Source: Sporomusaceae bacterium (GTDB lineage: Bacteria > Bacillota > Negativicutes > Acidaminococcales > JAJUGR01). From it: a DNA stretch of 47,877 nt. This document shows positions 6,465 through 19,921 of this stretch, in pieces (the first letter of the stretch is position 1; the number at the start of each line of letters is the position of its first letter). Made by a program: the position numbers and the translations under genes. Where the stretch lies: contig JAJUGR010000017.1 in the NCBI GenBank assembly GCA_029265905.1, positions 1 through 47,877 on the forward strand, read 5' to 3'. The notes beneath the pieces were generated by a model. That model was not told where the DNA came from. It did not search any database and worked only from the letters and a program-made list of their open reading frames with translations.

Positions 6465-7376
6465 GTGCCTAGATTGTCGATGAAACTAGCAGTAGGAATT
6501 GCGGTGATACTCAGTATCGTGGTGGCAGGAATGGTGTATGCGTATCTGCGCGATGTGGCAACCGCAAAACAAAAAGATTTGCGGCCGGTCGTGGTTGTCG
6601 CGCAAAATGTTGCGCCCAAGACTATTCTGACCAAGGAAATGTTGAAACAAGAGAATGTGCCATCAATTTATGTGCAGCCGGGGGCAATTGACAAGATTAA
6701 TACGGCTGTCGGCGTTATGGTGAAAGAGCAATTGATGGCTGGCGAACAAGTAGTAAAACATCGGTTGCTGTTGGATACCAAGGGTGATGGACTGGCTTTT
6801 CAACTGCCGCCCGGCATGCGGGCCTACACTGTTGGCGTAAATGAAACATCTGGCGGGGCGGGCTTCATTCGGCCGGGAGACAAGGTGGACGTGTTGGCGA
6901 CTTATGACAAATCTATCACTGGTGAATATACTAGTCATTTAGTCCTGCAGGATATAACGGTGCTGGCATTGAATCGTAGTGATGTGCAGCCCGCGCCAGT
7001 CGCCGCCGGCGATGCCAAGGGGCCGGCGAAGAGCAGCGCTGCAACGGACAACAAGTTGACCTCGGTTACGTTGGCCATCACGCCGGAAGATGCGGCTAAA
7101 ATGGCTTTGGCCGAGGACCGCGGGCGGATCCGCTTGGCCTTGCGGCCTTTCGCAACGGAAGCAATGCCGATTATGCCGGTTCGCGCCATGACCCCTAGAG
7201 ATTTGGTGGGCTACCTCTACCGGGCACCGCAAAGCAGTACGCCTCCGGTCTCAGCTGTTAACTACATGCCGATGGAATACCGCATGAGCGCTCCAGTTTC
7301 CGCCCCTGTGGTCAGCAGCGGCAATTCGGTGGAAGTAGTGCGGGGAACGTCGATTGAAAAAGTAGCAGTGAAGTAG
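6465..7376 (+). CDS. cpaB: Flp pilus assembly protein CpaB/RcpC
   Basis: A periplasmic/inner-membrane component of the Tad secretion machine that is thought to contact the secretin. It starts with GTG after AGAGGGGG at 8 bases. The 303 residues comprise one N-terminal membrane anchor (about 6-26), a SAF-like domain (about 43-105) and the CpaB/RcpC domain, with PGMRAYTVGVNETSGGAGFIRPGDKVDVLATYD as family landmarks split around residues 120-150. The C-terminal 60 residues are Pro/Ser-rich and not obviously conserved. It is the first gene of the Tad operon. CpaB is usually found with an RcpA/CpaC secretin, as here. Confidence 0.9.
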   Translation: MPRLSMKLAVGIAVILSIVVAGMVYAYLRDVATAKQKDLRPVVVVAQNVAPKTILTKEMLKQENVPSIYVQPGAIDKINTAVGVMVKEQLMAGEQVVKHRLLLDTKGDGLAFQLPPGMRAYTVGVNETSGGAGFIRPGDKVDVLATYDKSITGEYTSHLVLQDITVLALNRSDVQPAPVAAGDAKGPAKSSAATDNKLTSVTLAITPEDAAKMALAEDRGRIRLALRPFATEAMPIMPVRAMTPRDLVGYLYRAPQSSTPPVSAVNYMPMEYRMSAPVSAPVVSSGNSVEVVRGTSIEKVAVK

Positions 7377-7419: not shown

Positions 7420-8649
7420 GTGAATACATATCGGCGTGGGTGGAAGCAGTTAATGCTGGTGTTGGTTGTTATTTTGTTGGCTGTTTGGAGCCTGCCTGTT
7501 CTGGCGGCTAGCGATCCGATTCGTCTCAGTGTTAGCGAGTCAAAATCCATTTCGTTTAACAACATTGAGCGCGTTGCCGTAGCAAATCCGGCTATTGCAG
7601 ACGTGGTTGTCTTGTCGGGCAACAGTTTGTTGATTGTCGGGAAATCGCCGGGGGCGACGAGCCTTCACGTCTGGTCGGATGGCGAACGGTACCCGTATAC
7701 GCTTGAAGTGGTCTCGGCGGATGAGACTGTCGCGGCGCAAATCAGGGATATTTTAGGGTACCCCGGCATTAAGGTGAGCAAGGTCGGCAAGACGATTATT
7801 TTGGAAGGCACGGTGCGCGACCAGTATCAGCGGGAACGCGCTGAAAAAGTTGGCGGCGCTTACGGGGATAAGGTAGTTAACCTGTTGGAAATCAGTCGGC
7901 CTGTGCAAGTGAAAATGGAAGCCAAAATTGTTGAGATTAGCAAAGAGAAAACGAGCGATTTGGGGATCGTTTGGGGCAATAGCGTAACAGCTCCAGGCAG
8001 CTTTCTCTTCGGGCAAGGGGGACCAATCTATGGCGACAAGGATGTTGGCTACAGGATTCGCAACAGCTTAGACCCAACTGCTTTCAATAAAGCAGGTACG
8101 TATAGTCCGATTAATGCGCAACTGAACCTTTTGATCACCAATGGTGCCGCGAAACTGTTGTCTCAGCCCAACATGGTGACGTTGAGCGGTGAAAAAGCCA
8201 ACATTTTAGTTGGCGGCGAAATTCCTGTTCCCACCAGCAATGACAACGGCGAAATCGATATTGAGTGGAAAGAATATGGTATTAAACTGGAAGTGCTGCC
8301 GGAAGTCAGCCAGGAAGGTTTAATTAAAAGCAAGATTAAAGCGGAGGTAAGCACGCTTGATTTCGCATCAGGATTGGCAATCAGCCTTGGCAATAACCTG
8401 GTTATCCCACCGCTTAAAACACGTAAGGCTGAAAGCACAATTGGTGTTTTTTCAGGGGAAACGATGGCGATAGGTGGTTTGTTGGCATCAGAAGAGACCA
8501 AGAGCGTAACCAAAGTTCCACTTTTGTCCAGCATCCCCGTATTAGGCCATTTATTTAAAAGCACATCGTTCAGCCGTGGTGAAACAGAAGTTGTTATTCT
8601 GATTACTGCCACAGTGGTTCAGGATGCGGGTGTGAAACCGGAGGGATGA
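7420..8649 (+). CDS. cpaC: Tad-system outer-membrane secretin (CpaC/RcpA family)
   Basis: It would form the outer-membrane channel through which the Flp pilus passes. The 409-residue protein has a signal peptide (cleavage probably after VLAA, about 30), an N-terminal pilus-assembly domain (about 34-100), a BON-like segment (about 100-150) and the C-terminal secretin domain, with the typical LITNGAAKLLSQPNM, VGGEIPVP and GETMAIGGLL motifs. GTG 7420 follows GGTGATT. The stop shares bases with the next frame. Presence of a secretin is direct evidence that this Firmicute has an outer membrane, since monoderm Tad loci lack it. Confidence 0.9.
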   Translation: MNTYRRGWKQLMLVLVVILLAVWSLPVLAASDPIRLSVSESKSISFNNIERVAVANPAIADVVVLSGNSLLIVGKSPGATSLHVWSDGERYPYTLEVVSADETVAAQIRDILGYPGIKVSKVGKTIILEGTVRDQYQRERAEKVGGAYGDKVVNLLEISRPVQVKMEAKIVEISKEKTSDLGIVWGNSVTAPGSFLFGQGGPIYGDKDVGYRIRNSLDPTAFNKAGTYSPINAQLNLLITNGAAKLLSQPNMVTLSGEKANILVGGEIPVPTSNDNGEIDIEWKEYGIKLEVLPEVSQEGLIKSKIKAEVSTLDFASGLAISLGNNLVIPPLKTRKAESTIGVFSGETMAIGGLLASEETKSVTKVPLLSSIPVLGHLFKSTSFSRGETEVVILITATVVQDAGVKPEG

Positions 8650-8651
8650 TC

Positions 8652-9815
8652 GTGCAGACAAAAAGAATCGGCTTGCTAGGGCAAGACAAAGTGCTAAAAG
8701 AGCAGCTGGAGGCTTTGGTCGCGTTTACGGAATGGGGATTTTCCTGGGAGCGGACACTGCAAATCGGCGCAGAAAGCTGCGATGTTTTGCTAGTGGGAGA
8801 AGATTTTTGGACCTCATCCTCAGCGGGGCAACTGAGCGAATGGCGCAAGCGGTTTCCGGCAGTACAGATCGTGCTGCTGTCGGCGCTCAGCAGGCGGCAG
8901 GAAATGCAGCGGCTGCTTCGCACGTATGCCGACGACTATTTGATTTTGCCGCTTGACAAGGATGAAATGATCAGCGTGTTGCAAAAATGCGAAGAACGGA
9001 TCAGACAGGCAACCAATCAGAACACGACCAAAGGGAGGACTGTGGTCTGCTTCAGCCCATTAGGGCGCAGCGGCAAAACCAGCTTGGCCGTTAACCTGGC
9101 GGTAGCCCTAGGGGAAACGGATGAGCGGGGAGTCGTGCTGCTGGACCTGGCAGCGCCCTTCGGGGATGTGGCGCCGGCGACCGGGGCAACTGGTGAGTGC
9201 GTCGAAACGCTGGCTTCTGCTGCGGTGGGCAACCAAAACATCATCTGGCGGGAATATCTGGCGCGTTTCAACGAGTATCCGGTGTGGGTTGCCCCGGCTT
9301 CCGACATGATCATCGAACGGGACAAGCTAGGCTATGACAGGATGGCGGCGTTTATTAAGTTGCTGGAAGAGCAATTTGCGTTTGTGATTATTGACACTGC
9401 GCCAGAATTTCGCGACACGATCATAGCTGCATTGGACACGGCGGATACGATTTTATTGTTGGCGGTGCTCGAGCAGGTGCCGAGCGTGAAAAACATCAAG
9501 GTCTGCTTGGAGATTTTCCGGTCGCTCGGCTATGACGATGAAAAAGTGCGCTTGGTTTTAAATCGGGCAACGGCCAAATACAACCTGCAGGTGCAGGATG
9601 TGGAGAAAAATCTCAAGTATCCGATCGTTCGGCGACTGCCTAATGACTTTTCTTTAGTGCGGCGGTCGTTGGCAAACAAGATGCCTTTTGTAAAAAGCGA
9701 CTCGCATTCAAGTCTGGCGAAAGAAGTTGTTGGCTTGGCGGAAGCGGTGCGCACCGGATCATGGGAGCAAGAACAGCGTTCGGAGTGGAAGAGATTTACC
9801 AAATGGTTTTCCTGA
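8652..9815 (+). CDS. CpaE/TadZ-like protein 1: pseudo-receiver plus MinD-type ATPase
   Basis: The first of three consecutive CpaE-like genes. Residues 1-115 fold like a response-regulator receiver but lack its chemistry: the phospho-acceptor position in DVLLVGED is Gly, and the conserved Lys before Pro (LILPLD) is Leu. The MinD/ParA-like domain has a P-loop SPLGRSGKTS (about 135-144) that keeps the Walker Lys but has lost the deviant signature Lys at its start. CpaE/TadZ proteins localise the Tad machine at the cell pole. GTG 8652 is preferred to ATG 8646 because GGAGGG lies 6 bases before it and directly abuts the ATG. 387 residues. Confidence 0.85.
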   Translation: MQTKRIGLLGQDKVLKEQLEALVAFTEWGFSWERTLQIGAESCDVLLVGEDFWTSSSAGQLSEWRKRFPAVQIVLLSALSRRQEMQRLLRTYADDYLILPLDKDEMISVLQKCEERIRQATNQNTTKGRTVVCFSPLGRSGKTSLAVNLAVALGETDERGVVLLDLAAPFGDVAPATGATGECVETLASAAVGNQNIIWREYLARFNEYPVWVAPASDMIIERDKLGYDRMAAFIKLLEEQFAFVIIDTAPEFRDTIIAALDTADTILLLAVLEQVPSVKNIKVCLEIFRSLGYDDEKVRLVLNRATAKYNLQVQDVEKNLKYPIVRRLPNDFSLVRRSLANKMPFVKSDSHSSLAKEVVGLAEAVRTGSWEQEQRSEWKRFTKWFS

Positions 9816-9848
9816 CGATCCGGGAAAGCACGGCAAGGAGTGAGCTAG

Positions 9849-11042
9849 ATGGCCCGTCAGATAAGCATCTTTATTGTAGACGATATACAAGAAACCATCG
9901 ACAACATTAAGCAACTGGCAGCAATGCAGGGGGATCTGACGGTAGCGGGAGAAGCCAAGTCGGCGGAGGAGGCTTTTGAGAAATTAGCGGGGCTTCCCGT
10001 TGATGTGGTGTTGATGGACGTCAACATGGGCGGCATTGACGGAATGAAGGCGACAGAGCAAATGCGCCTTCAGTTTCCAGAGTTAATAGTCATATTAATG
10101 AGCGTTCAGCAGGAAGTAGAGTATTTTCGCCGGGCGATGCTAGCCGGGGCTAATAATTACCTGGTAAAACCATTTTCCTCAACTGAACTGGCCTCAACCA
10201 TCAAGGACACCATGGAGCGGCAACGGCGGTTGCAACCTCTGCCGGAGGGAAAGGCCATCGCGGTATTTAGTGCTAAAGGTGGTGTGGGCAAAACAACACT
10301 GGCCGTAAACCTATCCGTAGCGCTAAAACAGCGGCGCACCAAAGAAGAAGTGGTGCTGGTAGATGGGGCGTTGGCGTTTGGCGATGTGGCGTTGTTCATC
10401 AATATGCAGCCGCGCTGGACGCTGTACGACGCGGCCAGGGATGGACGCAATGCGCCGGGATTGTGGGATGAAAGAATGCTCCTGCCGGGGCCGGCAGGAA
10501 TATCGGTACTGCCGGCCCCAGTCAGACCGGAACAGGCCGAAGATGTATCAGTGGATGTTCTGATGGCGGCGATAAAGTTTGCAAAAAGCAGGGCTGCTTA
10601 TGTAGTAATTGATTTAGACCCCTCGTTCAGCGAACAGGCGTTAGCTGTAATGGAAGTGGCGGATTTAATTTTGATGGTAGGGACGTTGGATTTGCCTTCC
10701 GTCAAGAATGTGCGCCTGGCGCTTGATACAATGGAGCGAATCAACATTGGTCAGGATAAAATCAAGATAATCCTTAACCGGGTCAATTCTGAAGGGGCTT
10801 TGGATAAGGCGCTTGCCTTAAAAACCATTGACCATGAAGTGATTGCAGAACTTCCCAGTGACGGCAAGTGTGTTATGAATGCGCTGAACAAGGGCGTGCC
10901 GTTCATCTTGGACTGGCCGTCGGCGGCCATCAGCCATGCGGTCAAGCGGCTTGCTGAAGTGATTGATTGTGGTGCGGAAGCGATGGAGTCCGAAAGCCCG
11001 CCGCCCAAAAGTGGTTGGCGGCGCTTTTGGGGAGGTGATTAG
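9849..11042 (+). CDS. cpaE: CpaE/TadZ-like protein 2: receiver plus MinD-type ATPase, canonical motifs
   Basis: The 397-residue protein has an N-terminal receiver with a full set of phosphorylation residues (Asp11-Asp12, acceptor Asp57 in VVLMDVNM, Lys107 in LVKPF). A MinD/ParA ATPase follows, with a complete deviant Walker A KGGVGKTT (143-150). It is the only one of the three tandem paralogues in which both active sites look intact, so it is the best candidate for the true CpaE/TadZ that positions the pilus machine. ATG 9849 follows AAGGAGTGAG. No partner histidine kinase gene is in the window. Confidence 0.9.
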   Translation: MARQISIFIVDDIQETIDNIKQLAAMQGDLTVAGEAKSAEEAFEKLAGLPVDVVLMDVNMGGIDGMKATEQMRLQFPELIVILMSVQQEVEYFRRAMLAGANNYLVKPFSSTELASTIKDTMERQRRLQPLPEGKAIAVFSAKGGVGKTTLAVNLSVALKQRRTKEEVVLVDGALAFGDVALFINMQPRWTLYDAARDGRNAPGLWDERMLLPGPAGISVLPAPVRPEQAEDVSVDVLMAAIKFAKSRAAYVVIDLDPSFSEQALAVMEVADLILMVGTLDLPSVKNVRLALDTMERINIGQDKIKIILNRVNSEGALDKALALKTIDHEVIAELPSDGKCVMNALNKGVPFILDWPSAAISHAVKRLAEVIDCGAEAMESESPPPKSGWRRFWGGD

Positions 11043-11044
11043 CA

Positions 11045-12232
11045 TTGGCAGAAAAAGCAGTAAAGGTTTTTGTCATTGACGGCGTGAGGTCGGTGCGAGA
11101 CGAACTGTGCCAGTTGCTTGATTCGTCCGAACGGTTTATGTTGGCCGGGCGTGCGAGCAACCTTGCGGAAGCTGTAAGCAAACTTGAGAACAACGACGCG
11201 CAGGTAGCGCTGCTTGACCTGGATCTTCATGAGTTAGAGGATTTAACTGTACTGTCACGCTTTTGCGAAACGCATCCTGCCATCAAGGTGATTGGGACGG
11301 GCAGCAAGTGGGAGGACCCGGTGCTTAGGCCGGCGTTTGGTGCCGGCATCAGCGGCTACTTGAACAAGCCGTTCGAGGAGTGGCAGCTGGTGCAGTTGGT
11401 GCAAGAAATGTTAGAGCCTCAGGGCGATCCTGAAGCAAGAAGAGACGAGCCGCAGCAACTACAGCTGGGACACGTAGTGATGTTCCTAAGCCCGAAACGT
11501 GGCGTCGGGCAGACAACGCTGGCGGTGAACACGGCCACGGAGTTTTCTTGCGGAGACCAGGGGCGTGTCTGCCTTTGGGATGCAGACATGCACTTTGGCG
11601 ACGCAGCCCTGTTGCTTAACGTGCTGCCGCGCGCATCGGTCATTGACCTGCACCGTGAGTTGGAAGGCCTGACGGCACGCAGCGCAACATCGTTCTTCTC
11701 CTCTTGCGGTGAGAACCTGTGGCTGTTGGCGCCGCCCATCCGCCCGGAACAGGCTGAATTAATGACGGCAAAAGAAATGAAAGCCGTGCTGCAGTTTCTT
11801 AAAAAGACTTTTCGCTACGTAGTCATTGATGCAGCTTCCGGATTTCATGCTAATGCACTGGCATTATTGCCGGAGGTCGACCAGCTTGTTTTGGTGACGG
11901 AAGCGGGGGGGCTTCTTCCCGAACTCCATATATCCACGGCAAGGCGAATTCTCACGGAACTTGGCCTCAGTGCGGAACAGCAAATAGTAGCGCTCAACCG
12001 CATCAAGACAGAGGACCTGGCGGATGTCAACCGTTTTCGCGTTGAGGGGGGCAAACCGATCTTGTTCTTCTTCCCGAACGATTATCCATCTGTAACCGCT
12101 TCGCTGAACAGCGGCGTGCCGGTGGTGAAGAGCAAGCCGGGCAGTCAGATCGGAAGGGCGGTCAGCCAGTTTGCGGAATTACTGCAGGAGCGGGAAAAGA
12201 AATGCACCTCGCGTCTGCAGGAAGCGAGGTGA
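11045..12232 (+). CDS. CpaE/TadZ-like protein 3: receiver plus ATPase with lost P-loop lysine
   Basis: The 395-residue third paralogue starts at TTG 11045, 6 bases after a strong GGAGGTGA. Its receiver keeps the acceptor Asp58 and Lys108 but has only one residue of the acidic pair (Asp12). In the ATPase domain the Walker A reads KRGVGQTT (151-158): the invariant P-loop lysine is Gln156. ATP hydrolysis is therefore doubtful, although TadZ proteins with atypical Walker A motifs are known to bind nucleotide and dimerise. It lies 2 bases after paralogue 2 and 6 before tadB. A structural or regulatory partner role is inferred. Confidence 0.85.
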   Translation: MAEKAVKVFVIDGVRSVRDELCQLLDSSERFMLAGRASNLAEAVSKLENNDAQVALLDLDLHELEDLTVLSRFCETHPAIKVIGTGSKWEDPVLRPAFGAGISGYLNKPFEEWQLVQLVQEMLEPQGDPEARRDEPQQLQLGHVVMFLSPKRGVGQTTLAVNTATEFSCGDQGRVCLWDADMHFGDAALLLNVLPRASVIDLHRELEGLTARSATSFFSSCGENLWLLAPPIRPEQAELMTAKEMKAVLQFLKKTFRYVVIDAASGFHANALALLPEVDQLVLVTEAGGLLPELHISTARRILTELGLSAEQQIVALNRIKTEDLADVNRFRVEGGKPILFFFPNDYPSVTASLNSGVPVVKSKPGSQIGRAVSQFAELLQEREKKCTSRLQEAR

Positions 12233-12238
12233 AGGGGC

Positions 12239-13201
12239 ATGATGCTGAACCTTATTTTTCTGGTCTTGCTGAGCGCTTGCCTGCTATGGGTATTCATAAT
12301 TTACTGGAAAGGAACGTCAGAACAGCGGCTCGTGCAACAGCGGCTGGACAGGTTTGCAGGGGGGGCGGCTCTTCAGCGCGAAGTTGACGAAGAGATCAGT
12401 GACGATGCACGCTTGCGGGAAATGCTCCATAAGATCGGGCAGCAGTTGATGCCGTCCGCCTGGAATGCTTACTATGGGAAGCTTTTGTTGCAGTCCGGAT
12501 GGCGAATCAGGGCTCCGGAATTTATGGGCATCCTGGCAATGATGGCGTTGGTTGGCGGCCTGCTTGGCTGGTTGTGGTTAGGTTTTTTTGGCGGCCTGCT
12601 TATGGCGGGGGCCCTGGCGATGCTGGCGCACATGTTTTTGAAACGGACAATCGAAGTGCGGGGGAAAAAATTTACCGCGCAACTTTCGGACGCATTAGTG
12701 TTGATCGCCAACTCATTGCGCAGCGGCTTCAGCTTCATGCAGGCGATTGAACTGGTGTCCCGCGAGATGTCACCCCCGATATCGCGCGAATTCGCACGTG
12801 TGTTGAACGAAATGAACCTCGGAGCCACAGCTGATGATGCGTTAGAAAATCTAACCAACCGCGTGGCGAGCATGGAGCTGGAGTTAGTTGTCACCGCGGT
12901 TCTAATTCAGCGGCAGGTTGGCGGCAATCTGGCCGAGGTCTTGGATTCAATTGCGGAAACCATCCGTGAGCGGGCCCGCATGCGGCGCGAAATTTCTGCG
13001 CTGACTGCCCAAGGCCGGTTAGGCGGAATTGTGGTTGGTTCCTTGCCTTTTGGGCTGGCGGCTTATCTCTATATTCTGAACAGGGACTTTATCTCCATTT
13101 TGTGGACTTCGCCGATTGGTCAAATCTTGATTGCGATCGGGATTGGCATGCAAGTGATCGGCGCCTTTTGGATCAACAAGATTATCTCGATAGATGTCTG
13201 A
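12239..13201 (+). CDS. tadB: Flp pilus assembly inner-membrane protein TadB
   Basis: One of the two T2SF-family platform proteins of the Tad machine. The 320 residues comprise an N-terminal membrane segment (about 3-22), further hydrophobic segments around 95-130, a T2SSF domain (about 145-270; LVLIANSLRSGFSFMQAI, VGGNLAEVLD) and a C-terminal membrane pair. Motifs such as ERARMRREISALTAQGRL mark it as TadB rather than TadC. It is separated from cpaF and tadC by the pilin block, which is unusual since tadA-tadB-tadC are normally adjacent. Either of two consecutive ATG codons could start it. Confidence 0.88.
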   Translation: MMLNLIFLVLLSACLLWVFIIYWKGTSEQRLVQQRLDRFAGGAALQREVDEEISDDARLREMLHKIGQQLMPSAWNAYYGKLLLQSGWRIRAPEFMGILAMMALVGGLLGWLWLGFFGGLLMAGALAMLAHMFLKRTIEVRGKKFTAQLSDALVLIANSLRSGFSFMQAIELVSREMSPPISREFARVLNEMNLGATADDALENLTNRVASMELELVVTAVLIQRQVGGNLAEVLDSIAETIRERARMRREISALTAQGRLGGIVVGSLPFGLAAYLYILNRDFISILWTSPIGQILIAIGIGMQVIGAFWINKIISIDV

Positions 13202-13276
13202 TTTGACATAGTGCTTTATCGGTGAACAAAGGGGGTATGTTATCACGACGTTAGCACAGAAAACGAGGTGGAAGAA

Positions 13277-13474
13277 GTGGTGATAACTGATACGGCTGGC
13301 TCGGTAAAACGCCTTTTAAGCGCTAAGCGCGGCCAAGGTATTCCCGAATACTCTATCTTAGTGGTGCTGGTAATTGCCATTGCAAGCGCTGTTTTTGTCA
13401 ACCAGGGGCCATTTGATGACGCGTTGAAGTCGGCGTTTGATTTCCTTGCTTCGACCGTCAGCAGTGTACCATAG
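13277..13474 (+). CDS. Flp-type pilin 1 (divergent)
   Basis: A small prepilin of 65 residues from GTG 13277, 6 bases after GAGGTG; GTG 13268 or 13280 are alternatives. It has the class III prepilin motif RG/QGIPEY followed by a hydrophobic helix, with cleavage expected after the Gly so that Glu is +5 and Tyr +6. It resembles the two downstream pilins in layout but differs in sequence (IPEYSILVVLVIA against MTEYAVMVALVAL). It could be a minor pilin or a specialised subunit. Confidence 0.85.
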   Translation: MVITDTAGSVKRLLSAKRGQGIPEYSILVVLVIAIASAVFVNQGPFDDALKSAFDFLASTVSSVP

Positions 13475-13477
13475 AAA

Positions 13478-13664
13478 AGGAGGCGTTACTATGTTGAAGA
13501 GATGGTTGGCGTCGAGAAAAGGCCAGGGTATGACGGAATACGCCGTCATGGTAGCGCTGGTAGCGCTGATTTGCGCGGTGATTTTCGCTTCTGACGGTCC
13601 GTTGGCGGACGCCTTGAACACTGCGTTTGCTGCAGTGTCGACGGCGGTTAGCGGCGCCATCTAG
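13478..13664 (+). repeat. pilin-gene tandem duplication, copy 1
   Basis: This unit, Shine-Dalgarno included, is repeated at 13708-13894 with a 230-bp period. The coding parts differ at only two third-codon positions. Confidence 0.9.
13491..13664 (+). CDS. flp: Flp-type major pilin 2
   Basis: The 57-residue prepilin has a short Lys/Arg-rich leader ending KG/QGMTEY, a 20-residue hydrophobic helix and an Ala/Thr/Ser-rich tail. This is the minimal type IVc (Flp) pilin architecture. AAAAGGAGG lies 7 bases before ATG. The encoded protein is identical to that of the next gene; only two synonymous bases differ over 174. It would be polymerised by the CpaF/TadB/TadC machine after cleavage by a TadV-type peptidase, which is not encoded in this window. 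Confidence 0.92.
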   Translation: MLKRWLASRKGQGMTEYAVMVALVALICAVIFASDGPLADALNTAFAAVSTAVSGAI

Positions 13665-13707
13665 CTGGATGGTGCAGGGAGTCTTTTTAGTGGGCGACAA
13701 GGGGATA

Positions 13708-13894
13708 AGGAGGGGTTGCTATGTTGAAGAGATGGTTGGCGTCGAGAAAAGGCCAGGGTATGACGGAATACGCCGTCATGGTAGCGCTGGTAGCGCTGAT
13801 TTGCGCGGTGATTTTCGCGTCTGACGGTCCGTTGGCGGACGCCCTGAACACTGCGTTTGCTGCAGTGTCGACGGCGGTTAGCGGCGCCATCTAG
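13708..13894 (+). repeat. pilin-gene tandem duplication, copy 2
   Basis: Copy of 13478-13664. The two differences in the coding part are GCT/GCG (Ala) and TTG/CTG (Leu). Confidence 0.9.
13721..13894 (+). CDS. flp: Flp-type major pilin 3 (identical protein to pilin 2)
   Basis: A 57-residue prepilin, identical at protein level to the gene at 13491. AGGAGG lies about 8 bases before ATG. The 43 bases between pilin 2 and the Shine-Dalgarno of this gene are not matched elsewhere in the locus. The duplication may raise pilin dose or be a recent, possibly unstable event. A strong hairpin follows at 13916-13949. Confidence 0.92.
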   Translation: MLKRWLASRKGQGMTEYAVMVALVALICAVIFASDGPLADALNTAFAAVSTAVSGAI

Positions 13895-13915
13895 CCATTA
13901 ACTTGGTCGTTAGCT

Positions 13916-15508: not shown

Positions 15509-16891
15509 ATGTCGCTGTTACGTCGTTTGGAGGAACAGCAAAAAGGCGTTGCACCGGGAAGCACCGGAGGTGCTGATGTAAAACAGCGGATTGCTCCCGT
15601 GCGGTTGGATCCCTTTCAGGACTTGAAGGTCAAGATACACAGGCGGATTATTGACGACATGAGCAGCGACACACGTGCAATTTTGACGGACCGCAATGCC
15701 GACCGCAGCAAATTGAATGAGGTGGTAGCGCGCATATCAACTGCTGTCATGGATGAGGAGCGGACGGTTGTTCCGCGGGCTGACCGAGAACGCATCATTG
15801 AGGAAATGATCGATGAAGTGCTGGGGTTTGGTCCGATTGAACCACTGTTGAAGGAGGACAGCATAACGGAGGTCATGGTCAACGGATCGCACCAGGTTTA
15901 CGTCGAGCGCAAAGGCAAGCTGGTGCTGACGGATATCCATTTTCGCGACGACCAGCATGTCATGCATGTGATCGAGAAAATCGTTTCCCCGCTGGGACGC
16001 CGTATTGATGAAAGCTCGCCTTTGGTCGATGCCCGCCTGCCGGACGGTTCGCGTGTCAATGCGATTATTCCCCCCCTGTCGTTGAAAGGGCCGATTTTGA
16101 CGATCCGGAAGTTTGCTCGCGATCCCTACACGGTTAATCATCTGATTGGTTTTGGCACTTTGACCGAAGGTATGGCTGAGTTTTTAAAGGCCTGTGTTGA
16201 AGGAAAGCTTAATATCTTTGTTTCCGGCGGTACCGGTTCGGGCAAAACAACGACGCTTAACGTTCTGTCGTCCTTCATCCCTGGAGATGAACGCATCGTT
16301 ACAATTGAGGATGCGGCAGAGTTGCAGTTGCGCCAAGAACATGTCGTAACATTAGAGGCGAGGCCAGCGAATATTGAAGGCCGAGGCGCGATTACAATCC
16401 GCGATTTGGTGCGCAATGCCTTGCGCATGCGGCCTGACCGCATTGTTGTCGGCGAGGTGCGTTCCGGTGAAGCCCTGGATATGCTGCAGGCGATGAATAC
16501 CGGCCACGACGGGTCGCTGACGACTGGTCATGCCAATAGTCCGCGTGATATGCTGAGCCGTGTGGAAACGATGGTTATGATGTCCGGTATGGAGTTGCCG
16601 GTGCGTGCGATTCGCGAACAAATCGCCAGCGCTGTGGATTTGATCATTCACCAAGCTCGCCTTCGCGATGGCAGCCGCAAACTCACCTATGTGACAGAAG
16701 TGCAGGGGATGGAAGGGGACGTCATCACCTTGCAGGATATCTTTGTGTTCGAGCAAACAGGTAAGGATGAAAATGGCAAAGTAATCGGCCATTTCAGACC
16801 AACGGGAATCAGACCCCATTTCATTGACAAGCTGGAAGCTAATGGTATTCACTTGCCGAATGAAATTTTCTGGCAACGCGGCGCGTGGTAA
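15509..16891 (+). CDS. cpaF: Tad pilus assembly ATPase CpaF/TadA
   Basis: The secretion ATPase that powers Flp pilus assembly (and retraction in some species) at the inner-membrane platform. The 460-residue protein has a disordered N-terminus (1-35), an N-terminal domain (about 40-200) and a GspE/VirB11-type ATPase domain with Walker A GGTGSGKTT (240-248), Asp box VTIEDAAELQL, Walker B-like RPDRIVVGEVRSGEA and the His box (TTGHANSP). AGGAGGG precedes ATG. It is adjacent to tadC but separated from tadB by about 2.3 kb. Confidence 0.95.
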   Translation: MSLLRRLEEQQKGVAPGSTGGADVKQRIAPVRLDPFQDLKVKIHRRIIDDMSSDTRAILTDRNADRSKLNEVVARISTAVMDEERTVVPRADRERIIEEMIDEVLGFGPIEPLLKEDSITEVMVNGSHQVYVERKGKLVLTDIHFRDDQHVMHVIEKIVSPLGRRIDESSPLVDARLPDGSRVNAIIPPLSLKGPILTIRKFARDPYTVNHLIGFGTLTEGMAEFLKACVEGKLNIFVSGGTGSGKTTTLNVLSSFIPGDERIVTIEDAAELQLRQEHVVTLEARPANIEGRGAITIRDLVRNALRMRPDRIVVGEVRSGEALDMLQAMNTGHDGSLTTGHANSPRDMLSRVETMVMMSGMELPVRAIREQIASAVDLIIHQARLRDGSRKLTYVTEVQGMEGDVITLQDIFVFEQTGKDENGKVIGHFRPTGIRPHFIDKLEANGIHLPNEIFWQRGAW

Positions 16892-16903
16892 GGAGGGGTG
16901 ATG

Positions 16904-17857
16904 ATGGGCTGGCTGATTGGCATTGTATTGTTGACGTTTGTGATAGTTTTTTTCCTAGCCTTTGCCGTTTTCAACCGGCAGGAGCCGGTGACAGCGGAGG
17001 CGCGTTTGCAAGATGTGGAGCGCCATTACCGTGATCACAAACGGCCGATAGCCGGGAAAGCGTATGAAGTCTACAGCGTGCAGCGCGAAGGGTCGTTTTA
17101 TCAACGTGTCATACAGCCGTTAGGGGAAAAGCTGTCTGAGCAGTTTGAGTTTCTATCGTCATTTCGTGTATTTGCCTGGCTGGAGGAACGGCTCAAAATG
17201 GCAGGCCTGTCGGCGAAATGGACCCCATGGGAATTCATTGTGATGTGGGGCGCCCTCGTGCTGACCGGCGGTTTCTTAGGGTTGCTCTATTCGGTGTCGA
17301 AAAATATGGAACTGTTGCGCTTTTTGATGACGATATTCGTCGGTGCAGCGATTGGCGTATTGTCGGTTCCCTACTACTTGTACGGAAGAATAAAGGAGCG
17401 CCAGCGTGAAATCCAGCGCTCTTTGCCGGAAGTGTTGGATTTGTTGACCGTAAGTGTGGAGGCCGGGCTTTCGTTTGACGGGGCTTTGGTTAAACTGGCG
17501 GAAAAGATGAAGGGGCCGTTGGTTGATGAGTTGACTCGCGTGTTGCAGGAAATGCGTATTGGCATTCCGCGCAAGGCGGCTTTGAGTGCCATGGCTAAGC
17601 GCTGTGAAGTAGAGGATCTGTCTTTGTTTGTCAGCGCTATCGTTCAAGCTGATCAATTGGGTGTCGGGATCGCTAAAGTATTAAGGATACAGGCGGCGGA
17701 AGCGCGCGACAAGCGGCGCATGAAAATACGCGAGTTGGCCATGAAGACGCCGATTAAGATGGTTTTCCCGCTGGTGTTTTTTATCCTACCTGCCCTGTTT
17801 ATCGTTGTGCTGGGACCAGCGCTTCTTTCGCTGATGAAGACGTTTTCAGGGAAATAG
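16904..17857 (+). CDS. tadC: Flp pilus assembly inner-membrane protein TadC
   Basis: The second T2SF-family platform protein, 317 residues. There is an N-terminal membrane helix, a pair of helices around 105-155, the T2SSF domain (LPEVLDLLTVSVEAGLSFDGAL, about 180-200) and a C-terminal hydrophobic pair ending FPLVFFILPALFIVVLGPA, which is typical of TadC. Three possible starts (GTG 16898, ATG 16901, ATG 16904) follow AGGAGG; 16904 gives the best spacing, 7 bases after GGAGG. The gene lies 12 bases after cpaF. Confidence 0.9.
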   Translation: MGWLIGIVLLTFVIVFFLAFAVFNRQEPVTAEARLQDVERHYRDHKRPIAGKAYEVYSVQREGSFYQRVIQPLGEKLSEQFEFLSSFRVFAWLEERLKMAGLSAKWTPWEFIVMWGALVLTGGFLGLLYSVSKNMELLRFLMTIFVGAAIGVLSVPYYLYGRIKERQREIQRSLPEVLDLLTVSVEAGLSFDGALVKLAEKMKGPLVDELTRVLQEMRIGIPRKAALSAMAKRCEVEDLSLFVSAIVQADQLGVGIAKVLRIQAAEARDKRRMKIRELAMKTPIKMVFPLVFFILPALFIVVLGPALLSLMKTFSGK

Positions 17858-18318: not shown

Positions 18319-18395
18319 TGGTCGGGGCGACAGGATTCGAACCTGCGGCCTCTTAGTCCCGAACCAAGCGCGCTACCAAACTGCGCCACGCCCCG
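18319..18395 (-). tRNA. tRNA-Pro (anticodon CGG)
   Basis: A complete cloverleaf of 77 bases: acceptor stem CGGGGCG/CGCCCCG, D arm GCGC..GCGC, anticodon stem CTTGG/CTAAG (one G-U pair) with loop TTCGGGA, anticodon CGG at 18361-18359, and TPsiC arm GCAGG-TTCGAAT-CCTGT. The encoded 3' end is ACCA. It reads proline codon CCG. It has its own promoter and terminator, so it is an independent transcript on the minus strand between the Tad operon and the HD-GYP gene. Confidence 0.97.
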
Positions 18396-18439: not shown

Positions 18440-19921
18440 TTAATTTGCGTTGTTTTCTTGCATGACGCCAGGGAGCTCTTCGGCAGTGTCATCTTCGGCT
18501 GGAACTTGCGGCTGCCGCTTAGTTTGGGCATTCTCCGGCCGGCCCAATTCAACTTCATTGTCCAAGGTTTCAAGAATCTTTAAGATGTCGCTTTGGTGTT
18601 TTTCAAAAATTCGCACGACAATGGGGTCAAATTGCGAGGCGGAGCCCCGGACGATTTCCTTCATGGCCTGATAATGGGTCATGCCCTTGCGGTACGGCCG
18701 GTCGGAAACCATGGCCTGGTAGGCGTCGGCCACGGCGATAATGCGCGCGCCGAGCGGGATGTCGGAGCCGCGCAGCGGTTCAGGGTAGCCATGGCCGTCC
18801 CAGCGGCAGTGGTGGTACTTGATGATTTCCGCCACGCGGTCAAGCGAGTGGATGCCGGAGATGATTTTCCAGCCGTTGACCGGGTGCTGCTTGACTTGGC
18901 GCCATTCCTCGTCTGTCAATTTGCCGTGCTTGTTTAAAATGTTGTCCAGGACGCCGATTTTGCCGATGTCGTGCAAAATGGCGGCGAAGTTGATGTCGAA
19001 GCGCTCGTCTTCCATGACGCCCATTTTTAGGGAGATAAATTCAGTGATGGAGGCGACGGCCGTTGAATGGCCGTATGTATAGTGGTCCTTTACCTCCAGG
19101 GCGGAGACCAGGGAGGTGACCGCAGCCAGAATCATTTCCATCCGTTCCGTACTGATCCGCTCCGCGAGCTTCGTCACCCGGGTCGCCAGCTCCGACAGAC
19201 GATCATGTTCGCCGTCAAAGATGGCGTGCGGCTTTTTGCCATTCATCATGTTGTCCAGCTCGTCGGTGACGCGTTGCAGTCGCCGGGTGAAGCGGCTGGA
19301 TACGGTAATGATGAAAAACATCATTACCGCGAGGATCAGGATCATATACAGCGCGATCATCATGGAATAGCGGTTCAGGGCGTCGCTGACGCCTTTGGCA
19401 TTGTAGTCGAGGCCGAGCATGGCGACCGTTCGGCCGTCGTCCGCTTTGATCGGCGCGTAGCCGGAGATGGTGGCGCCCCATTTGTCGGTGATGATGTCCT
19501 TATCCGCGCTGGGGCGGATGAAGCCGTTCGCCATTTCCGGGGCGATGGACGCGTCGTATGATTCGCCGTACCGAGCGCTTTCATTTAGCCGGCTGACGTC
19601 GGCAATGAAAACGTACTGTCCGGCTTGCTCGCCCTTGCGCAACAGGTAGACAGAGACTAGTTGCTCGTTCAGGGTGAGGACTTTGCGCAATTTTTGCTGC
19701 AAGGTGGCATACTGGGCGGTTTTTTCAAAGCCAGGGCGGAGTTCATTGGGCAAATCATCGTCATCGACGTAGAGGGCGGCGGCCGCGGACAGCCGCATTA
19801 AATCGTCGCGCAAGTACTCCGTATGGCTCAGGCGGACGCACTGGTTTAAAACGACGGTAATAAAGACAATGAGCACGAGGAAGCCTTGAAACAACCGGTT
19901 GTTAAAGGGAAAAGGCAACAT
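18440..19921 (-). CDS. membrane-bound HD-GYP domain protein (putative c-di-GMP phosphodiesterase)
   Basis: The 493-residue sensor-type protein has a membrane helix (about 10-30), an extracytoplasmic Cache/CHASE-like domain (about 31-185), a second helix (about 187-207), a HAMP-like linker and an HD-GYP domain (about 265-450). The metal-binding HD is His317-Asp318 in HDIGKIG, and the signature HHCRWDGHGYP is at 370-380, so the active site looks intact. HD-GYP proteins usually hydrolyse c-di-GMP. GGAAAGGAG lies before the ATG. The acidic C-terminal tail of about 45 residues is not conserved. Its place next to a Tad locus suggests a link to surface attachment, as inference only. Confidence 0.9.
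   Translation of the reverse strand: MLPFPFNNRLFQGFLVLIVFITVVLNQCVRLSHTEYLRDDLMRLSAAAALYVDDDDLPNELRPGFEKTAQYATLQQKLRKVLTLNEQLVSVYLLRKGEQAGQYVFIADVSRLNESARYGESYDASIAPEMANGFIRPSADKDIITDKWGATISGYAPIKADDGRTVAMLGLDYNAKGVSDALNRYSMMIALYMILILAVMMFFIITVSSRFTRRLQRVTDELDNMMNGKKPHAIFDGEHDRLSELATRVTKLAERISTERMEMILAAVTSLVSALEVKDHYTYGHSTAVASITEFISLKMGVMEDERFDINFAAILHDIGKIGVLDNILNKHGKLTDEEWRQVKQHPVNGWKIISGIHSLDRVAEIIKYHHCRWDGHGYPEPLRGSDIPLGARIIAVADAYQAMVSDRPYRKGMTHYQAMKEIVRGSASQFDPIVVRIFEKHQSDILKILETLDNEVELGRPENAQTKRQPQVPAEDDTAEELPGVMQENNAN

Follow-up and report, generated by a model that had tools for sequence, protein, structure and literature searches.

Three tandem CpaE/TadZ paralogues in a Sporomusaceae Tad pilus locus: a candidate a/b pair flanking a canonical copy

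We analysed a 47,877-nucleotide stretch of DNA from a Sporomusaceae bacterium, here called the window, in which three consecutive CpaE/TadZ genes (P1, P2 and P3) lie within a Tad pilus locus. Comparison of their sequences with those of relatives suggests that P1 and P3 correspond to an old pair of neighbouring genes, a and b, spread through the class, that P2 is a retained copy of the canonical type, s, and that P1 and P3 may form a heterodimer with a composite ATP site; we regard this whole reading as about evenly balanced, leaning slightly towards doubt. All three proteins belong to the known CpaE/TadZ family, of which the a/b pairing is a variant, and our literature searches brought up no report of CpaE pairs in this class.

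The Tad locus and its three CpaE/TadZ genes

A single, complete Tad pilus locus lies in the window. It encodes, in this order, CpaB, the secretin CpaC, P1, P2, P3, TadB, small Flp-type pilins, TadE, TadG, CpaF and TadC (Table 1), so that CpaB, the secretin, CpaF, TadB and TadC surround each of the three CpaE genes. The succession of three CpaE/TadZ genes announced in a preliminary description of this DNA is real: they are tandem, intact open reading frames on the + strand, closely packed and with good ribosome-binding sites. P1 may start at the ATG at 8646 or at a GTG at 8652, the latter being better spaced from GGAGGG at 8640-8645. Pairwise identities of P2 to P1 and to P3 are only 28-29%, and the three are therefore old paralogues. 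P1, P2 and P3 are the only full-length CpaE matches in the genome. Two other T2SSE matches elsewhere in the genome, in adjacent genes, are presumably a type IV pilus pair. Because there is a single Tad motor gene, P1, P2 and P3 presumably all serve one Tad machine.

Table 1. Features of the Tad locus and motifs of the three CpaE/TadZ paralogues (positions in the window)
Feature	Position	Strand	Remark
CpaB/RcpC, Tad locus	6465..7376	+	Pfam PF16976
CpaC secretin, Tad locus	7420..8649	+	Pfam PF00263
P1, a-type CpaE/TadZ paralogue	8646..9815	+	389 aa from ATG
P1 Walker A SPLGRSGKTS	9054..9083	+	sequence
P1 C-terminal tail ...SEWKRFTKWFS	9741..9812	+	aromatic/basic
P2, canonical CpaE/TadZ (s type)	9849..11042	+	397 aa
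P2 Walker A SAKGGVGKTT	10269..10298	+	sequence
P3, b-type CpaE/TadZ paralogue	11045..12232	+	395 aa; TTG start after GGAGGTGAT
P3 Walker A SPKRGVGQTT	11489..11518	+	sequence
TadB platform protein	12239..13201	+	Pfam PF00482
CpaF/TadA motor ATPase	15509..16891	+	sole Tad-type CpaF in genome
TadC platform protein	16898..17857	+	Pfam PF00482

The MinD/ParA fold region is present in all three proteins; Pfam CbiA/AAA_31 matched P1 and P2, and NCBIfam MinD-family models matched P1, P2 and P3, in each case below the cut-off. The Pfam Response_reg profile matched P2 (1.6e-24) and P3 (6.4e-13) and gave no receiver match in P1. Monomer models of P1 and P3 were predicted from 16-sequence alignments (pLDDT 79 and 83, respectively). 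An alignment-based scan of genome contigs yielded generic patterns and, for the most part, outgroup sequences; we used it for these alignments and for rooting. The best PDB matches of both models in Foldseek were 3ea0 and the MinD 1g3q, and TadZ 3fkq also scored high. The N-terminal region of P1 shows an alternating order of strands and helices in the model, at moderate confidence, which would be compatible with a receiver-like fold.

Alignment of the motifs bore out the earlier description of P1 as lacking the receiver phospho-Asp, the receiver Lys and the signature (deviant Walker) Lys. The equivalents of receiver residues D11, D12, D57 and K107 are G, Q, G and L, the acidic pair being lost as well, and the signature Lys is replaced by Leu139; the P-loop Lys144 is kept. 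Equally, P3 retains the phospho-Asp and Lys of the receiver (Asp58 and Lys108) and carries Gln156 at the P-loop Lys (KRGVGQTT), as had been described; its signature Lys151 is kept, and both the second acidic residue and the Ser/Thr switch are Gly. In P2 the receiver is complete and neither Walker A lysine is missing, but the statement that it has every motif proved wrong: the equivalent of MinD D40 (third residue of DADLQFGD), for which P. furiosus MinD 1g3q served to confirm the register, is Ala174 (DGALAFGD). The same position is Ala169 in P1 (DLAAPFGD), and among the three it is Asp only in P3 (Asp181, DADMHFGD). MinD carrying D40A shows deficient hydrolysis of ATP (PMC6803595). None of P1, P2 and P3 unites the P-loop Lys, the signature Lys and the D40 Asp of a full hydrolysis site: P1 is missing the second and third of these, P2 the D40 Asp and P3 the P-loop Lys. 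The complementary losses, as they appear in these motifs, are best read as lying between P1 and P3 and not across all three.

Paired and single CpaE loci across the class

Of 381 genomes of the class searched, 183 had CpaE matches at E <= 1e-18. We take the class as Negativicutes, a label from the preliminary description that suits a Bacillota class with secretins; the phylum is Bacillota, since a named Clostridiaceae sequence grouped with the sequences marked as belonging to it. We examined 40 more loci closely: 20 had a single CpaE whose greatest resemblance was to P2, and 20 had two neighbouring CpaE genes between CpaC and TadB. In a widened sample of 83 a, 84 b and 64 s sequences, the signature Lys was kept in 0/83 a, 84/84 b and 63/64 s, the P-loop Lys in 83/83 a, 69/84 b (14 Arg and 1 Gln in the others) and 61/64 s, and the D40 Asp in 82/83 a, 78/84 b and 58/64 s. 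All 83 a+b pairs combined an a protein with the P-loop Lys and without the signature Lys with a b protein that has the signature Lys, and since every one of these related gene pairs shows it, the reciprocal lysine pattern is more than chance, although sequence counts of loss and retention do not equal independent events. Loss of the P-loop Lys in 15/84 b sequences (15/83 pairs) corresponds to three inferred changes on the b tree. The two genes were neighbours in every pair locus sampled. A McdA-like compensation in a by a substitute Lys was rejected, as no conserved new Lys replacing the lost signature Lys was found in a. A plasmid search with a b protein returned distant CpaE only.

The two members of the pair also differ in domains and tails. 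Most a proteins are about 280 aa long and lack the receiver, the D57 column being empty in 70/83, and b proteins keep it. At least two Trp/Phe residues occur in the last 24 positions of 95% of a, 68% of s and 11% of b. P1 ends in an aromatic/basic tail, probably a membrane-contacting helix, P2 ends in SGWRRFWGGD, and such a tail is absent from P3. The conserved basic residues found at positions 286 and 289 of P2 are retained by a, s and P1 as well, are reduced in b and are lost in P3. The third Walker A position is Lys or Arg in 82/84 b and Gly in s; the b protein of L063 (KGKSGKT) exemplifies this change from Gly, and P1 also has Arg there. The replacement of Asn by Thr in the b version of the LNR motif, considered as added site erosion, was dropped, as E. 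coli MinD likewise has Thr at this position.

Several loci depart from these two arrangements. The a proteins of L054 and L055 are full length: L054 (G067) and L055 (G066) each have an a-b Tad locus with a receiver-bearing a and a separate canonical s elsewhere (L091 and L087, respectively). L089 and L090 are canonical CpaE genes with no Tad neighbours within 14-16 kb, possibly orphans. The a matches at G070:C1:1755810-1756643 and G080:C6:1598780-1599595 run upstream through in-frame stops toward the receiver region; these extensions may be what remains of a receiver lying before the current start.

In gene order, lysine pattern and tails P1 corresponds to a and P3 to b: P1, the first gene, lacks the signature Lys and has the P-loop Lys, and P3, placed second with respect to it, has the signature Lys. 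The receiver of P1 is degenerate and not absent as in most a. Unlike the a/b pairs, P1 and P3 are not directly adjacent, the s-type P2 standing between them, which makes the window locus an a-s-b variant; no other a-s-b triple was found in the class search, in which four candidates per genome were scored. P3 carries 8/39 b-diagnostic residues in the MinD domain and 5/9 in the receiver, compared with 9 and 5 in the b of L054. P1 has none of the residues diagnostic of a against both b and s, and the s profile scores P1 and P3 higher than the a or b profiles do.

In a tree of the MinD domain the neighbour of P1 was a (96/76) and that of P3 was b (100/95), with P2 within s, and the best full-length tree placed P1 with a (98/87), P3 with b (99/96) and P2 within s (96/98). 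When outgroups were added, P3 stayed with b (97) with the Walker A columns in or out, in quick trees with SH-aLRT only. All three window sequences have long branches, those of P1 and P3 being very long (2.3-3.0). With the MinD-domain data the AU test did not reject alternative placements, including P1, P2 and P3 as one clade; with the full-length data P1 within s was not rejected (p = 0.255), P3 within s was borderline (p = 0.074) and a recent triplication confined to the window lineage, with all three in one clade, was rejected (p = 0.0019). We favour the reading of P1 and P3 as putative orthologues of a and b. The preliminary description had asked whether the three paralogues fall into separate clades, each sharing the same losses of residues. 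This expectation holds for loss of the signature Lys in a and its retention in b; the P-loop loss in b is only partial (15/84), and the positions of P1 and P3 are favoured ones on long branches.

An outgroup-rooted tree (quick, with SH-aLRT only) has a and b arising inside the class from an s-type ancestor. A quick tree of the Tad backbone, built from five other Tad proteins joined, gave the order type II, L071, L055, L054, window, type I; in it the window locus branches between the loci of a-b type and those of s type (SH-aLRT 96-99), and a CpaF-only tree places it beside L054 (85). The simplest reading of these sequence trees would be that s gave rise to a-s-b by duplication, followed, according to lineage, by a-b through loss of s or by s alone through loss of a and b. 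The window would then keep all three genes, and it branches as expected of an a-s-b intermediate.

A candidate composite ATP site

ParA/MinD switches are usually regarded as symmetric homodimers. The signature Lys works in trans in ParA and MinD dimers, reaching the partner's ATP (PMC5393062, PMC6803595), so that a and b may be read as the two unequal halves of a heterodimer sharing one composite ATP site. A subunit with the P-loop Lys and without the signature Lys would hold ATP and could not complete its partner's site, and a subunit with the signature Lys would complete the partner's site even with its own P-loop broken. With the P-loop Lys serving its own subunit (cis) and the signature Lys the partner (trans), P1 and P3 would leave exactly one usable site. 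The a/b pattern, including the relaxed constraint on the b P-loop, is what a one-site heterodimer would predict.

P1 and P3 would most likely form an asymmetric sandwich heterodimer of the MinD type. P1 would hold ATP through its own P-loop Lys and contact the inner membrane through its C-terminal tail; P3 would supply the receiver domain and the signature Lys that reaches across to the ATP in P1. The nucleotide site of P3 would be dispensable in such a dimer, and its P-loop Lys could therefore be lost. P2 probably pairs with itself, within or next to a CpaE ring around the CpaF motor. There would be room for heterodimers in this ring, because Caulobacter CpaE has been fitted as six dimers around CpaF (PMC13170226). 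With the D40 Asp missing from P1 and P2 and the P-loop Lys missing from P3, the ATP-bound dimers would be long-lived and may act as a nucleotide-gated scaffold with no hydrolysis. The earlier proposal of duplication, split of roles and a hetero-oligomer fits the class-wide a/b pattern, but its roles need reassigning: P2 is of the canonical single-copy type, and since it lacks the D40 Asp, a role for it as the subunit that hydrolyses ATP is unsupported. We advance, more tentatively still, that in a large part of the class the Tad CpaE could be an obligate heterodimer encoded by two genes, in which one protein brings the P-loop and the membrane tail, the other brings the signature Lys and the receiver, and a single composite ATP site results; the window would be an otherwise unseen a-s-b intermediate with no complete hydrolysis site in any subunit. 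If true, the cis and trans catalytic parts would have been sorted into two genes, each lysine could be tested in a natural one-site dimer, and the finding would bear on whether CpaE acts in the Tad motor as a nucleotide-gated scaffold or as a hydrolysing switch.

An unlikely alternative is that P1 and P3 are separate homodimerising regulators, P1 a McdA-like ATPase and P3 a pseudo-ATPase with a signalling receiver, their losses reflecting parallel specialisation. Loss of the signature Lys alone does not require a partner, for the McdA of S. elongatus is without this residue and still works as an active ATPase (PMC6328274); atypical Walker A motifs are moreover common in CpaE, the P-loop Lys being kept in only 5/28 outgroup sequences. 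However, a role in cis only would not predict that b keeps its signature Lys throughout while its P-loop Lys erodes, and the lack of a substitute Lys in a and the adjacency of the two genes in all pair loci sampled also speak against separate regulators. Somewhat less probable again is that P1 and P3 are fast-evolving, degenerating copies, independent of a and b, whose resemblance to them stems from convergence or long-branch artefact. Their long branches and the AU tests, which leave s+P1 and s+P3 standing, are in keeping with it. Rejection of the window-only clade, intact reading frames behind good ribosome-binding sites, the b-type receiver residues and tail loss of P3, the a-type tail and lysine pattern of P1 and the branching of the window locus next to a-b loci all argue the other way.

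We consider it quite improbable that P1, P2 and P3 co-assemble in a mixed CpaE ring around CpaF in which P2 also pairs with P1 or P3 and sets stoichiometry through its receiver. One operon with one CpaF, a receiver complete only in P2 and the six CpaE dimers per machine proposed in Caulobacter (PMC13170226) are compatible with such a ring, but relatives having a and b alone or s alone indicate that a three-way assembly is no general requirement.

Known relatives and neighbouring genes

The best structural match to the P1 and P3 models, the ParA-family ATPase 3ea0 of Chlorobium tepidum, has neither the P-loop Lys (SAKGGDGGS) nor the D40 Asp (DISLPFGD). It differs in having been solved as a MinD-like domain of ~240 residues, in a chain without receiver, and we know of no paralogue pair for it. 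Eubacterium rectale TadZ (3fkq), a near full-length Foldseek match to both models, and Caulobacter CpaE share with them the receiver plus MinD-type ATPase, an atypical receiver and Walker A and an ATP-dependent dimer (PMC13170226), but these are homodimers for which a complementary gene pair is not described. E. coli MinD (3q9l) and ParA form sandwich dimers of the same fold, with the signature Lys directed to the partner's ATP (PMC5393062, PMC6803595), but as homodimers with two equal sites and no receiver, whereas one site is predicted for an a-b dimer. Cyanobacterial McdA is likewise a ParA-family ATPase without the signature Lys (PMC6328274), but it has no paired paralogue that retains this residue.

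Some neighbouring features of the Tad locus were also recorded. A 57-aa Flp-type pilin gene is present in two copies within a 192-nt direct repeat at 13474-13895 (97% identical, 230 nt from start to start), adjoined by a third, differing small pilin-like reading frame at 13268-13474. Just downstream of the locus and facing it, an HD-domain gene (HD_5, HD-GYP-like) occupies 18440-19921 on the - strand, possibly linking the locus to c-di-GMP, and a tRNA-Pro (CGG) gene lies between the two at 18319-18395, also on the - strand.
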